Source of the DNA: an uncultured Kiritimatiellota bacterium
GTDB lineage: Bacteria; Verrucomicrobiota; Kiritimatiellia; RFP12; DVOR01
Direction of reading: 5' to 3'
Assembly (NCBI GenBank): GCA_944389565.1
Contig: CALXMV010000007.1
Span: 1 to 64,000, forward strand
DNA length: 64,000 bases
The notes under the pieces were generated by a model. That model searched no databases. It worked only from the letters and a program-made list of their open reading frames with translations, and was not told where the DNA came from. This document shows, one piece after another, positions 57,790 through 62,522 of this stretch; position 1 is the stretch's first letter; every line of letters starts with the position of its first letter. A program made the position numbers and the translations under genes.

Positions 57790-57795
57790 GCTCCC

Positions 57796-57804
57796 ATTAT
57801 AGCA
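57796..57804 (-). promoter_or_regulatory. lepA extended -10, leaderless start predicted
   Basis: Minus strand TTTGC-TATAAT, hexamer at 57801-57796; the six bases GGGAGC separate it from the ATG at 57789. Confidence 0.68.
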
Positions 57805-57881
57805 AATCGGCTGGGGCCGTGGACAACCGCCACGGTCTCGGCCCATGGGGCGGCAGGCCCCCACGGCGCCGCTTTATTTGC

Positions 57882-57911
57882 TTGCAAGGGGGGGAGGAAA
57901 TCGGATAGACT
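57882..57911 (+). promoter_or_regulatory. promoter of the sensory hydrogenase operon
   Basis: TTGCAA (57882-57887), 18-nt spacer, TAGACT (57906-57911). The leader of about 16 nt holds AAGGAGA before the ATG at 57934. Confidence 0.55.
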
Positions 57912-57933
57912 AGAGGCAATCAAGGAGAGAGCG

Positions 57934-58179
57934 ATGGTCAAGGTGACGATTTGCATGGGCAGCTCCTGCTTTTCGCGCGGGAACAGCAAGAACCTGGAGG
58001 CGGTGCGGGCATGGCTCGCGGCGCACGACAGGGAGGACGCGGTGGTCCTGCGCGGCTGCAGGTGCGGCGGGCTTTGCGGTGAGGGGCCGAACATCTGGAT
58101 CGACGAGGTGTGCCACAGCGGGGTGACGCCGGAGGCCGTGCCGGGGCTCTTGGCCAAGGCATTCGGGGAGGAGGCGTGA
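57934..58179 (+). CDS. [2Fe-2S] thioredoxin-like ferredoxin
   Basis: 81 aa. Cys pattern C7-x4-C12 (C-M-G-S-S-C) and a second pair in C-R-C-G-G-L-C-G near 42-48 (C-x3-C with one extra Cys) fit the thioredoxin-like [2Fe-2S] fold found in NuoE, HndA and HoxE. The chain is the minimal domain only. AAGGAGA lies about 6 nt before the ATG at 57934. It ends 1 nt before the hydrogenase ATG, so it most likely passes electrons to or from that protein. An upstream extension of the frame runs antisense through lepA and is not real. Confidence 0.88.
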   Translation: MVKVTICMGSSCFSRGNSKNLEAVRAWLAAHDREDAVVLRGCRCGGLCGEGPNIWIDEVCHSGVTPEAVPGLLAKAFGEEA

Positions 58180-58180
58180 G

Positions 58181-59902
58181 ATGGACGCGTTGGCGCCTAT
58201 CTATTCCGTGAACGCGCAGTGCCGCGATTGCTACAAGTGCGTGCGGCGATGCCCGGTGAAGGCGATCCGCGTGGAAAACGACCATGCGGTGGTGATCCCC
58301 GAGGCGTGCATCTTCTGCGGGACGTGCGTGGGGACGTGCCCGAACCATGCGAAGATGGTGCGCGACGATCTGACGGCGGTGCGCAATCTGGTGGGGGCGC
58401 GGCGCGACGTGGTGCTCTCGGTGGCGCCAAGCTTCGCATCGGAGTTCCCCGGGGTGGATCCGGCACGTTTCGTTTCGGCGATGCGGAAACTGGGGTTCGC
58501 GCACGTGCGGGAGACGGCGGTGGGGGCGAACATCGTCTCGCGGGCGGTGGCGGAGCTGATGGCCCGAAACACGGCGCATCGGCTGCAGATCTCCTCGGCC
58601 TGCCCGGTGGTGGTGGAGCTCATCCAGCGTTATCACCCGCGCTTCTCCGCCTACCTGACGCCGGTGGACTCGCCGATCATCGCGCACTGCAAGGCCTTGC
58701 GCCGCGAGTTCCCCGACGCGCCGATCGTCTTCGTGGGGCCATGCGTGGGGAAAAAGCACGAGAGCGACCTGCAGCCCGACCTCCTCACCGCGGCGCTGAC
58801 CTTCGAGGAGCTCCGGCGATGGATGCTCATGGCCGGCGTGGACGACCCGAACGCGCTCGACCCCGCCCCGGACTACCACCTGCCCGGCGATGGCGCGTAT
58901 TACCCGATCGAGGGCGGGATGCTCCGTAGCGTGGCGCGCAACTTCCGCGCGCTCGCCCCGCAGGGGGAGCTCCAACCGATGACCCTCACCGGCGTGAGCA
59001 CCATCCGCACGATGCTCGAGACGCTCGACCCCAAGACCCTCGAACAGCCTGTCTTCATCGAGGCGCTGGCGTGCCCCGGTGGGTGCGTCTGCGGTCCCAA
59101 GACACGCGTCAGATGCGCCGCCGGAGGTATGCTCGACGTGCTCCGCCACGCGCGGAAGACCTTGCCCGACGACCCGGCGGACAAACCGGACGTGCTCCGC
59201 CACTACCGTCCCGCGCCGACCGCCCAGAACGCCTTCACCGAGGAACAGATCCAGGCCACGCTTCATGCGCTCGGCAAGTTCCGCCCGGAAGACGAACTCA
59301 ACTGCGCGGGGTGCGGCTACGACTCCTGCCGCGAGCTGGCCTGCGCCATCCTGGCGGGCAACGCCGAGCCGCAGATGTGCGTGAGCCGGATGCGGCAGAT
59401 CGCGCTCAAACAGAGCTCCGCCATCGACCGCGCCCTACCCTATGGGCTCGTGGTGGCCGACAAGGCGCTCAACATCATCGAATGCAACGAACGCTTCGCC
59501 ACGCTCCTGGGCGACGCCGCACGGTTGGCCTACGAGGCGAAGCCCGGCCTGCGCGATGCCGACCTCGCCCGCATGATCCCCTACCCGCAGCTCTTCCAGA
59601 AGGTGCTCGACACCGGCGAGGAGATCATCCGCCGCACGGTCGACATCGATGGGCGGCTCTTCTCCCTCACCATCTTCAACGTCGACGTCCATGAGGTCAT
59701 CGGCGCGCTGATCCTCGACATCACCGAGACCGAGCGCAACCGCCAAGCGCTCATCGAGAAGGCCCGCACGGTCGTCACCAACACCGCCAAGACCGTCCAG
59801 GAAATCGCCTTCATGCTCGGACGCAACGCCGCCGAGAGCGAGCTCATCCTGGACTCCGCAGTCGAGATGTTCGCGCCGCTCGACACGGAGGGCGAGCCAT
59901 GA
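58181..59902 (+). CDS. sensory-type [FeFe]-hydrogenase with PAS domain (HydS-like)
   Basis: 573 aa. Two [4Fe-4S] sites lead (C14-x2-C17-x2-C20-x3-C24-P and C43-x2-C46-x2-C49-x3-C53-P). The H-cluster domain (about 75-320) has L1 S139-A-C141-P, L2 G186-P-C188-V-G-K-K-H-E and L3 L-A-C298-P-G-G-C302. An extra Fe-S motif C375-x2-C378-x4-C383...C400 and a PAS domain (about 415-520) follow. The L1 position that carries the proton-relay Cys in catalytic hydrogenases is A140, as in group C sensory enzymes. So it probably senses H2 or redox state rather than producing H2 fast. GGAGGAGG precedes the ATG; the stop overlaps the phosphatase start by 4 nt. It also resembles HfsB-type proteins. Confidence 0.92.
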   Translation: MDALAPIYSVNAQCRDCYKCVRRCPVKAIRVENDHAVVIPEACIFCGTCVGTCPNHAKMVRDDLTAVRNLVGARRDVVLSVAPSFASEFPGVDPARFVSAMRKLGFAHVRETAVGANIVSRAVAELMARNTAHRLQISSACPVVVELIQRYHPRFSAYLTPVDSPIIAHCKALRREFPDAPIVFVGPCVGKKHESDLQPDLLTAALTFEELRRWMLMAGVDDPNALDPAPDYHLPGDGAYYPIEGGMLRSVARNFRALAPQGELQPMTLTGVSTIRTMLETLDPKTLEQPVFIEALACPGGCVCGPKTRVRCAAGGMLDVLRHARKTLPDDPADKPDVLRHYRPAPTAQNAFTEEQIQATLHALGKFRPEDELNCAGCGYDSCRELACAILAGNAEPQMCVSRMRQIALKQSSAIDRALPYGLVVADKALNIIECNERFATLLGDAARLAYEAKPGLRDADLARMIPYPQLFQKVLDTGEEIIRRTVDIDGRLFSLTIFNVDVHEVIGALILDITETERNRQALIEKARTVVTNTAKTVQEIAFMLGRNAAESELILDSAVEMFAPLDTEGEP

Positions 59903-61080
59903 GCGACGAGAGCGCCCCGCCGCCTTTCATCGAGGTCGATTGGTTCAATCGCCATAAGTTCCGAAAGGTCTGCAGCGGCGATGTCTTCCTCAGCGAGCGC
60001 TTGGCCGACGGATCGGTCGTGGCCGTGCTCACCGACGGCCTCGGCTCCGGACAGCAGGCAAACGTCTGCGCATCGCTCACCGCCACGATGGCGATGGCCT
60101 ATATGCGCGCCTCGCTGGGGCTTCGCCGCGCCGCGACGCTCATCATGGACGCCCTGCCGCTTTGCCCCGAGCGGCACATCTCCTACTCCACCTTCACGAT
60201 GATCCGCGCCGACCCGCACGGCGAGGTGCGCATGATCGAATACGAGAACCCTCCGGCGACCCTCCTGCGCGGCGATGAGCCTGTCGACATCCCCCGCACG
60301 CCCTACACGCTCCCGCGCTGGGAGGGGCGCACGCTCCGCTACGCGACGTTTCGGATGGGGCTCGGCGACCGTCTCTTCTTCTGCTCCGACGGCATCACCC
60401 AGGCCGGGCTCGGCGCTCCGGACACCCCCTTCGGACAAGGCCTCGAACGGGTCGTCCCTTGGCTCCGGGAGGCCATCCGCATCGCGCCGGAGGTCGGCGC
60501 GCACGTGCTCTGCAAAGGCGCCGCCGACCGAGCCACGCGGTTGGACGGCGGCCGCGCGGGCGACGACACGACCGCCGCCATGCTCCATTACCGCACGCCG
60601 CGCGTCACCCAGATGCTCACCGGGTGCCCCTTCGACAAGACACAGGACGCCGCCTACGCGGCCTTGGCCACGCGTCCCGGCGTCACCGTCATCGTCTCCG
60701 GCGGCTCGACGGCCGACCTCATCGCCCGCGAGCTCGACCGCCCGATCGACACCCCCCTCACGGCGCTCGACCCGGAGGTGCCCGCGGAATCCGTCATCCC
60801 CGGCATCGACCTGGTGACCGAGGGGTGCGTCACGCTCTCCAAGGTCATCGACCTGCTCCGCCACCCGGGCCCCGACGCCCGCGTGAACCCCGCCACCAAG
60901 ATGCGTGACCTGCTCCTCGCCTCCGACCAAATCCGGATCGACGTCGGCACGGCCATCAACCCGGCCCACCAAGACCCCAACCTGCCCATGTCCCTCGATA
61001 TCCGCCGCAACATCGTCCGCGAGCTGGCGGACGTCCTGCGCGGACTGTACGTCAAAGACGTCACCGTGAAGTTCCACTGA
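59899..61080 (+). CDS. SpoIIE/PP2C-type protein serine phosphatase
   Basis: 393 aa. The N-terminal 240 residues are a SpoIIE-like PP2C phosphatase: G27-D28 near the start, L-T-D46-G47-L-G-S-G with metal-binding Asp, a central F-T-M-I-R-A-D near 100, and F-C-S-D-G-I-T and G-D-D-T-T-A-A-M later (about 160 and 220). The last 150 residues form a second domain with V-I-V-S-G-G-S-T-A-D-L-I (near 262), not recognised. Overlaps the hydrogenase by 4 nt (ATGA), so it is the likely output partner of the H2/redox sensor. The target phosphoprotein is not in the window. Confidence 0.88.
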   Translation: MSDESAPPPFIEVDWFNRHKFRKVCSGDVFLSERLADGSVVAVLTDGLGSGQQANVCASLTATMAMAYMRASLGLRRAATLIMDALPLCPERHISYSTFTMIRADPHGEVRMIEYENPPATLLRGDEPVDIPRTPYTLPRWEGRTLRYATFRMGLGDRLFFCSDGITQAGLGAPDTPFGQGLERVVPWLREAIRIAPEVGAHVLCKGAADRATRLDGGRAGDDTTAAMLHYRTPRVTQMLTGCPFDKTQDAAYAALATRPGVTVIVSGGSTADLIARELDRPIDTPLTALDPEVPAESVIPGIDLVTEGCVTLSKVIDLLRHPGPDARVNPATKMRDLLLASDQIRIDVGTAINPAHQDPNLPMSLDIRRNIVRELADVLRGLYVKDVTVKFH

Positions 61081-61088
61081 GGCTCCCC

Positions 61089-62522
61089 ATGCTTGCCCGC
61101 ATCCCCGCCACGCTCCTGCTCCTCGCCCTCGCGCTGCCGATCCACGCGGCCGTGCCCGCCTTCACGCAAAACATCGCCTGCCCGCCCCTGCGCGTGCGCC
61201 TGCCCAAAGACGCGCAGGCCACCCCCACCCCCGCCACGGAGGCTTACCGCGGCGTGATGCAGCACCCCGATGGTTCGGTCGTCGAGGTGGACGCCTTCGT
61301 CCCCGAACAGCTCTGGCGCAAAGAGCAACGCCTCGGCGCATGGGCCGATGCCGCCGGCAACAAATACGAGCTCGTCGCCCCCAAAAGCCTCCTCGGCGGC
61401 CCCTTCCCGCAGGCCATCGTCACCCGCGAGGTCTACGACGCCATCCAAGCCAAAGCGCCGGCGCTGGCCCTGCCCACGATGGGCAAATGGCTCACCGCAT
61501 GGGTGGGGGCGCCCTGCGGCCGGCCCACCCGCCTCAAACCTCTCGGCGCGGTGGCCAACGCCATCTTCGCGGAGGTCGGGAACGCCGCCGCGCTCGTCCT
61601 GTGGCTCAAAGCCGAGCCCGACCAACCCTACGCGCTGATCGTCACCCCGGGGCCCAACGCCGACCCCGCCGCCAAATGGCGCACCGCGCTCTCGCGCGCC
61701 ATGCCTGGTTTCGCCCCCATCCGCGGGGGGCTCAGCGGTTCCGCCAAGGAGGCCGGCGGCTGGCTCACCCTCGACCGCCCTCCCTACCGTCTGCACACCG
61801 ACCTGCCCCGACGTGACCGCGCGTGGCTCGACACCCTCCTCGCCGACATGGTCGCCATCCGCGAGGCCTACACCCGCGCGCTTCCGGAACCCTCCGGCGT
61901 CAAGATCCCCACCAGCGTCATCCGCGTCTTCGCCGACCCGGAGGACTACCGCGCTTACTCCGGCGAGGGAATGGAATGGAGCGCCGGCCACTTCTCTTCC
62001 GTCCAGCGCGAGCTGGTCGTCATGGGCGACGCCGCCGAGGATTCCAACAAGCGCCGCCGCGACGAAATCCGCTCCACCACCTTCCACGAAGGCTTCCACC
62101 AATATCTCTTCCTCATCACCCCCGCGCTCGCGAACGTCCCGATCTGGTTCAACGAAGGCCACGCCACCTTCTTCGAGACCTTCCGCGTGCGGAACGGCAA
62201 GGCCGCCCCGGGCGAATCGCCCCGCATCGAGGCCGCCCGGCGTGCCATCGGCCTCCGTTCGCCGGAAGGGCTCGGACGCTTCATGATGCTCTCGCAACCC
62301 GAGTTCTACGCTACCTCCATCCAGGAGAACTACGCCGTCGCCTGGTTGCTCGTCCATTGGCTCCGCACCGAGGCCAAAGCGCCGCTCGACACCGCGCTCA
62401 ACCGTTACTACGCCCTCCTCTGCGCCGGCAAGAAGCCCGCCGAGGCACAGGCCGAGGTCTTCCCCCCAGAGACGCTCCGCGCCATCTCCGAAGGCCTGGC
62501 GGACTACCTTTCCAAACACTGA
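61089..62522 (+). CDS. exported DUF1570-type gluzincin peptidase-like protein
   Basis: 477 aa with a signal peptide (L-L-L-L-A-L-A-L-P-I-H-A-A, cut near 21). The C-terminal half has the zinc motif H-E-G-F-H (T-F-H-E-G-F-H-Q-Y near 335-343) and, about 20 residues on, W-F-N-E-G-H-A near 357, whose Glu would be the third ligand, matching DUF1570. The N-terminal half (25-230) is unrecognised. It begins 8 nt after the phosphatase stop, so it may share that transcript, but a link to the sensor is only positional. Confidence 0.82.
   Translation: MLARIPATLLLLALALPIHAAVPAFTQNIACPPLRVRLPKDAQATPTPATEAYRGVMQHPDGSVVEVDAFVPEQLWRKEQRLGAWADAAGNKYELVAPKSLLGGPFPQAIVTREVYDAIQAKAPALALPTMGKWLTAWVGAPCGRPTRLKPLGAVANAIFAEVGNAAALVLWLKAEPDQPYALIVTPGPNADPAAKWRTALSRAMPGFAPIRGGLSGSAKEAGGWLTLDRPPYRLHTDLPRRDRAWLDTLLADMVAIREAYTRALPEPSGVKIPTSVIRVFADPEDYRAYSGEGMEWSAGHFSSVQRELVVMGDAAEDSNKRRRDEIRSTTFHEGFHQYLFLITPALANVPIWFNEGHATFFETFRVRNGKAAPGESPRIEAARRAIGLRSPEGLGRFMMLSQPEFYATSIQENYAVAWLLVHWLRTEAKAPLDTALNRYYALLCAGKKPAEAQAEVFPPETLRAISEGLADYLSKH

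Follow-up and report, generated by a model that had tools for sequence, protein, structure and literature searches.

A phosphatase-linked, group C3-type [FeFe]-hydrogenase module in an uncultured Kiritimatiellota bacterium

Known phosphatase-linked hydrogenases and the Kiritimatiellota module

PAS-containing [FeFe]-hydrogenases of sensory type encoded beside a Ser/Thr phosphatase gene are classified in HydDB as group C3, "phosphatase-linked (putative)", with their role given as undetermined (PMC5037454). The module described here, three packed genes at positions 57934-61080 of a 64,000-nucleotide stretch of DNA (contig CALXMV010000007.1, positions 1 to 64,000; hereafter the window) from a Kiritimatiellota bacterium of gut type, lies entirely on the forward strand and encodes a [2Fe-2S] protein, a PAS-containing hydrogenase-like protein (HydS) and a PP2C-family phosphatase. 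It is real and well conserved, and it belongs to an already known kind (group C3, or hfsABC) rather than to a new sort of system. A preliminary description of the window had read it as a group C sensor layout; the sensor class is supported, but the layout itself is not new, having been named in HydDB. What we add is where a non-clostridial clade falls in the tree and which residues mark it, the finding that in this lineage the module stands apart from the group B gene, and a second phosphatase domain that is specific to the system.

The assignment to group C3 was made by layout and tree: HydS has the four ligand cysteines, a C-terminal [4Fe-4S] site with a PAS region and a place in group C, and its gene overlaps the adjoining phosphatase gene by 4 nucleotides. 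It departs from the group in falling into a separate non-clostridial subclade (support 100/100) with alanine, glycine and leucine (A-G-L) at three second-shell sites.

The order of genes is that of hfsABCD in Thermoanaerobacterium saccharolyticum, which we compared by its published description (PMC5707799, PMC11837493), where HfsA comes first, then the PAS-hydrogenase HfsB and then the serine phosphatase homologue HfsC. In contrast to that cluster, the window has no hfsD-type catalytic gene in the next position; a DUF1570 gene stands there instead, and the group B gene of the genome is found on another contig (C13). Deletion of hfsA or hfsB raised adhE transcripts 2-3-fold and increased ethanol, whereas deletion of hfsC or hfsD gave no such rise (PMC5707799).

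A search of plasmids gave, on pRUMAL01 of Ruminococcus albus 7, a locus with the order rex, adhE, an APH-fold kinase-like gene, two [2Fe-2S] genes, HydS, a SpoIIE phosphatase and a hydrogenase, the last having the Fer4-rich layout of group B. This locus shares the order [2Fe-2S]-HydS-PP2C with the window, and both large proteins are 31% identical to their window counterparts over nearly their full length, including the C-terminal domain. However, R. albus keeps the relay cysteine and has two [2Fe-2S] genes, and its locus is flanked upstream by rex-adhE and the kinase-like gene and downstream by a catalytic hydrogenase. When R. albus is grown together with an H2 consumer, expression of the whole cluster drops 111-fold, and an output through a phosphatase has already been proposed (PMC6776011). 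The kinase-like protein (L193:6019-6768, between adhE and the [2Fe-2S] genes) has an APH/RIO fold and is possibly what the literature calls the "adjacent Ser/Thr kinase". The idea that the module has an antagonist kinase of its own next to it was considered and dropped, as a single-sequence search with the R. albus protein returned no homologue in the other neighbourhoods or in the window.

At the sites of the relay cysteine and M353, the group C enzyme HydS of Thermotoga maritima (TmHydS) likewise has alanine (A131) and glycine (G177; PMC10055695), whereas it has S267 where the window protein has L296. Outside the Clostridia, BfuT of Hydrogenedentota is a C3 hydrogenase with a PAS domain (PMC11406978); it adjoins a group A3 (bifurcating) hydrogenase and not one of group B, and a phosphatase is not mentioned in the text of PMC11406978. 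The Hydrogenedentota locus in our own set (L057) has HydS-PP2C followed by a large hydrogenase.

Class of the hydrogenase and conservation of the module

The hydrogenase tree was built from 73 H-domain sequences, with group labels given here from layout and motifs and not by HydDB. HydS falls within the group C clade (99/94), together with clostridial PAS-hydrogenases. Groups A (100/100) and B (95/88) form clades separate from it, as does the sensory group D (TamHydS type; 100/100), whose candidate set consists of proteins of ~440 amino acids assigned by layout, and from which HydS also differs in having a PAS region. Seven clostridial genomes (L141-L147) carry a hydrogenase of 434-451 amino acids that lacks a PAS domain, has alanine at the relay site and forms its own clade in the tree, and these were taken as group D; in each of the seven genomes a group A hydrogenase is encoded ~5-10 kb away.

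The second-shell residues of HydS are A140, G186 and L296 (C299->A, M353->G and M497->L in CpI numbering), compared with C, M, M in group A and C, G, M in group B. Both the cysteine that the catalytic groups A and B have at C299 and their methionine at M497 are thus missing, and the A-G-L pattern is fixed across the sampled non-clostridial PP2C-linked clade; the relay-site cysteine is retained in some clostridial members. The substitution of alanine for the proton-relay residue had been pointed out before, and the motif S139-A140-C141-P142 is exactly as described. Since TmHydS also has this alanine and retains low activity with slow H2 turnover (PMC10055695), the substitution alone does not prove that the enzyme is non-catalytic, and because it occurs in about 43% of the sensory enzymes surveyed (PMC10055695) it fits the sensory class but is not diagnostic. 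The CpI variant M497L has no properly integrated 2Fe subcluster (PMC10055695). Together the tree, the L1, L2 and L3 residues and the domain layout support a sensor-class, group C hydrogenase, and the protein probably senses hydrogen.

The four cysteines that serve as H-cluster ligands (C141, C188, C298 and C302) are present and invariant among relatives, as are those of the extra Fe-S site (C375, C378, C383 and C400). The PAS domain and the extra Fe-S site that had been placed after the H-cluster domain were both recovered, PF04060 scoring above its cut-off and PAS_8 close to its own (21.6 bits against 21.8), with a PAS-like pattern of strands and helices at residues 401-513 of an AlphaFold2 model (mean predicted local distance difference test score, pLDDT, 85). 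The pattern VQ.IA..LG...AE in the end helices (residues 515-564) is found as well in R. albus HydS and in the alignment of relatives, and from the model these helices are a candidate output or docking element. The [2Fe-2S] protein is a thioredoxin-like domain standing alone (PF01257), in which cysteines C7, C12, C44 and C48 are invariant over 79 aligned sequences.

HydE, HydF and HydG were each found above cut-off in the same genome, a draft that is ~95% complete, so that absences from it are not final. The genome also encodes one catalytic hydrogenase of each of groups A and B, the former of the bifurcating HydABC type (C19) and the latter preceded by a [2Fe-2S] gene of its own (C13). With HydS outside the catalytic groups in the tree and all three maturases present, neither of the two observations that the preliminary description named as counting against a sensor is borne out.

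Conservation of the locus was followed in GTDB genomes through 62 PP2C relatives whose matches span the protein wholly or for the most part. Most come from gut genomes labelled Kiritimatiellota/Lentisphaerota, from gut Alphaproteobacteria and from Bacteroidota, and a few from Planctomycetota, Hydrogenedentota and Christensenellaceae. The order [2Fe-2S]-HydS-PP2C was found in 53 of the 62 loci fetched in this way, and the pairing of HydS with the phosphatase is fixed across several phyla. Another [FeFe]-hydrogenase gene, mostly of group B, lies within 0.6 kb downstream in 50/62 loci, but there is none in the loci of the window's own clade (0 of 11), and thus in this clade the sensor module has been separated from its usual group B partner. 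In three clostridial genomes a full-length adhE adjoins the HydS-linked phosphatase gene (L196:4642-7245, L198:6085-8685 and L207:5638-8241), an arrangement in line with a regulon that would include adhE.

The module occurs twice in tandem in Labilibaculum (L029:9297-12615; also L032, L041, L043, L045 and L047). The second PAS-hydrogenase has lysine at the relay site and an L3 motif that is one residue short (C-x-GC, not C-x-GGC), and it is followed by a PP2C gene of its own; judging from these motifs, it may have lost the ability to hold a normal H-cluster. A Bacteroidales locus (L058) encodes a similar degenerate protein.

The phosphatase and its C-terminal domain

The AlphaFold2 model of the phosphatase has a pLDDT of 89, and its best fold match in the PDB is 3pu9. 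The residues of the PP2C metal-site motifs (D46, G47, D164, D222 and D223) are invariant, and helices 52-70 and 75-85 occupy the place of the SpoIIE switch helices. The protein resembles the SpoIIE/RsbU phosphatases in its PP2C fold, switch-helix region and metal ligands (PMC5468089), whereas the regulatory region, which is N-terminal in those enzymes, is C-terminal here, and the window genome has no detectable STAS substrate. A second, partial SpoIIE match (profile positions 121-191) was seen in a 139-amino acid open frame on another contig of the genome (C23:28967-29179) and is possibly a fragment.

The C-terminal domain of the phosphatase had been called unrecognised, and indeed the region at ~236-393 has no match in Pfam, NCBIfam, PHROG or the PDB sequences, apart from weak Pfam matches (E 0.015-0.24). 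Rossmann domains of the SLOG, DeoR-C and PrpR_N types were considered for it, and comparison with single E. coli sequences of Smf, PpnN, DeoR, NagB and PrpR gave hhalign probabilities below 2%, like those of the controls. In Foldseek the PP2C matches dominate, and there were weak viral matches to DUF2493 and YspA with a root-mean-square deviation of ~7 Å. Its conserved motifs are GG[ST], IDLVTEG..T and G..IN.AHQ[DN]P..P. The first PP2C relatives had been fetched with peptide baits from this very domain, and conservation was therefore rechecked with a domain-only profile, which gave the looser pattern AHQ[DN]P as against the AHQDPNLP of the search baited with that peptide.

The profile found the domain in 110 of 391 sampled Clostridia, in 99 of 388 genomes of the window's phylum and in 10 of the 11 other sampled genomes of the genus. 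In all 60 loci that were inspected, 30 from the clostridial survey and 30 from that of the phylum, it is fused to PP2C and stands beside a PAS-hydrogenase. The domain is thus a signature of HydS-linked phosphatases and, by sequence, a family dedicated to them. Present in about a quarter of the sampled genomes of either set, it is a defined piece of the system and a clean genomic marker. The motif G..IN.AHQ[DN]P..P, the most conserved stretch of the domain, is also where the model is least certain (pLDDT <50 at residues 360-363), which would suit a mobile loop for binding a ligand or partner. As a tentative proposal, one that is more doubtful than the module's role as a sensor, the domain may be Rossmann-like and of a sort not described before, with a metabolite or nucleotide as its ligand (or with HydS docking to it); the phosphatase would then integrate H2 or redox state with a second signal, and its target in Kiritimatiellota would be a substrate of Hanks-type kinases and not a STAS protein.

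Proposed route of the signal and alternative readings

We consider it fairly probable that the locus is a hydrogen- or redox-sensing module of the group C3, hfsABC type whose signal is passed to the PP2C phosphatase. HydS would be matured by the HydEFG of the genome and would read H2 or the redox state of ferredoxin through a slow H-cluster with an altered second shell, while the [2Fe-2S] protein and the ferredoxin-type clusters would exchange electrons with the redox pool. Once HydS had bound H2, or had been reduced by way of its clusters, the end helices and the [4Fe-4S]/PAS unit near its C terminus would shift position and act on the neighbouring PP2C, probably at its switch helices; in SpoIIE these helices move a metal-binding glycine and so switch the enzyme on (PMC5468089). 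The phosphatase, with its C-terminal domain as a putative built-in module for binding a partner or ligand, would then dephosphorylate a regulator carrying Ser/Thr phosphate, and this regulator would adjust how electrons are disposed of in fermentation, by way of the catalytic hydrogenases and, in Clostridia, of adhE. The phosphatase is the obvious next link in how group C hydrogenases relay a hydrogen signal and, if the link from H2 to the phosphatase is true, the level of hydrogen would be tied to what gut and rumen bacteria produce by fermentation.

Several points weigh against this reading. The PAS score is marginally under the Pfam cut-off. In T. thermosaccharolyticum, hfsD returned to a strain without hfsABCD suffices for high ethanol in the absence of hfsC (PMC11837493), so that HfsC is not strictly needed for the high-ethanol phenotype and HydS may either restrain or drive the phosphatase. 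The C-terminal cluster of the group D enzyme TamHydS does not respond to H2, and a conformational and not a redox signal has been suggested for it (PMC13104023); the relay step may thus work otherwise, by structural means. Finally, since neither a catalytic hydrogenase nor adhE is adjacent in the window's clade, the regulon there is a guess.

The thioredoxin-like [2Fe-2S] partner and the two ferredoxin clusters would also suit a module that responds to the redox pressure of ferredoxin or NAD(P)H and not to H2, in which the clusters do the sensing and the H-cluster is a vestige or serves as a safety outlet, and the tandem paralogue of Labilibaculum has lost features of the H-cluster motifs while keeping the PAS layout and its own PP2C. 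However, the H-cluster ligands are all conserved in the window's clade and the response of R. albus tracks the level of H2 (PMC6776011), and we regard this alternative as unlikely, though not negligible. We find it more improbable still that HydS catalyses at a low rate or exchanges electrons as a partner of the [2Fe-2S] protein, with the phosphatase doing no more than sharing its transcript. The genome has the maturases, HydS has all four H-cluster cysteines, TmHydS still turns over H2 slowly despite its relay alanine (PMC10055695), and some clostridial members have cysteine at that site, but HydS has substitutions at the relay cysteine and at both M353 and M497, the last being the one at which the leucine variant of CpI fails to integrate its 2Fe subcluster properly (PMC10055695), and a pairing with the phosphatase family that is constant over several phyla is not explained by chance co-transcription.

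A more specific output had been suggested, in which the PP2C acts like RsbU or SpoIIE on a phosphorylated STAS anti-anti-sigma factor, so that an RsbW-type kinase would release its sigma factor. The phosphatase has a SpoIIE/RsbU-type catalytic domain, STAS proteins are classic targets of the PPM phosphatases of this family (PMC11418112), and some STAS domain occurs in 20 of 26 other genomes with the module. But a search of the draft window genome for such a pair gave no STAS domain at E<=0.001 and no RsbW-type kinase, its sole HATPase_c_2 match being a PAS-histidine kinase; STAS is likewise missing from the remaining 6 of the 26 genomes, four of which are close relatives, and the neighbourhoods that were read, in which most genes are unannotated, showed no recognisable STAS or RsbW-type gene next to the module. 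We therefore give this target very little credence, the least of the alternatives considered. The genome does encode several Hanks-type kinases, which could supply the phosphate for the phosphatase substrate.

Layout of the locus

The features of the module are collected in Table 1. The tight packing of the three genes, with a 1-nucleotide gap and then a 4-nucleotide overlap, is confirmed at the positions originally reported. The claim that they have their own promoter fared less well, as a scan upstream of the module gave no sigma-70-like match; the lepA-type gene upstream is divergent across a gap of ~143 bp, however, so that a promoter in this gap is likely.

Table 1. Positions of the module and of its parts within the window.
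Feature	Positions	Strand	Basis
Intergenic stretch between the lepA/EF4-type gene and the module, presumed promoter region	57791..57933	+	Read from sequence
Shine-Dalgarno-like AAGGAG	57922-57927	+	Precedes first ATG of the module
Thioredoxin-like [2Fe-2S] protein, NuoE C-terminal type, HfsA position, 81 amino acids	57934..58179	+	PF01257, E 2e-8
HydS, group C (C3-type) [FeFe]-hydrogenase with PAS, 573 amino acids	58181..59902	+	Domain matches, tree, alignment
HydS residues 9-57, two N-terminal [4Fe-4S] ferredoxin clusters	58205..58351	+	Fer4 family matches
HydS residues 76-306, H-cluster domain	58406..59098	+	PF02906, E 2e-36
L1 motif S138-S139-A140-C141-P142	58592..58606	+	Sequence; alignment with catalytic groups A and B
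HydS residues 373-401, C-terminal [4Fe-4S] site	59297..59383	+	PF04060 above cut-off
HydS residues 401-513, PAS-like domain	59381..59719	+	PAS_8 just below cut-off; AlphaFold2 secondary structure
HydS residues 515-564, conserved C-terminal helices, VQ.IA..LG...AE	59723..59872	+	AlphaFold2 helices
SpoIIE/PP2C-family Ser/Thr phosphatase, HfsC position, 393 amino acids	59899..61080	+	SpoIIE PF07228, E 4e-15
PP2C domain, residues 10-232	59926..60594	+	AlphaFold2 model, motif residues, fold match
Phosphatase C-terminal alpha/beta domain, residues 236-393	60604..61077	+	AlphaFold2; domain-only profile

The DUF1570 gene begins 8 nucleotides past the phosphatase gene (61089-62522). It is a conserved neighbour in most loci of the window's clade, but its distance from the module varies among them and it was therefore left out of the module; its product has a weak peptidase-like match and an apparent signal peptide.

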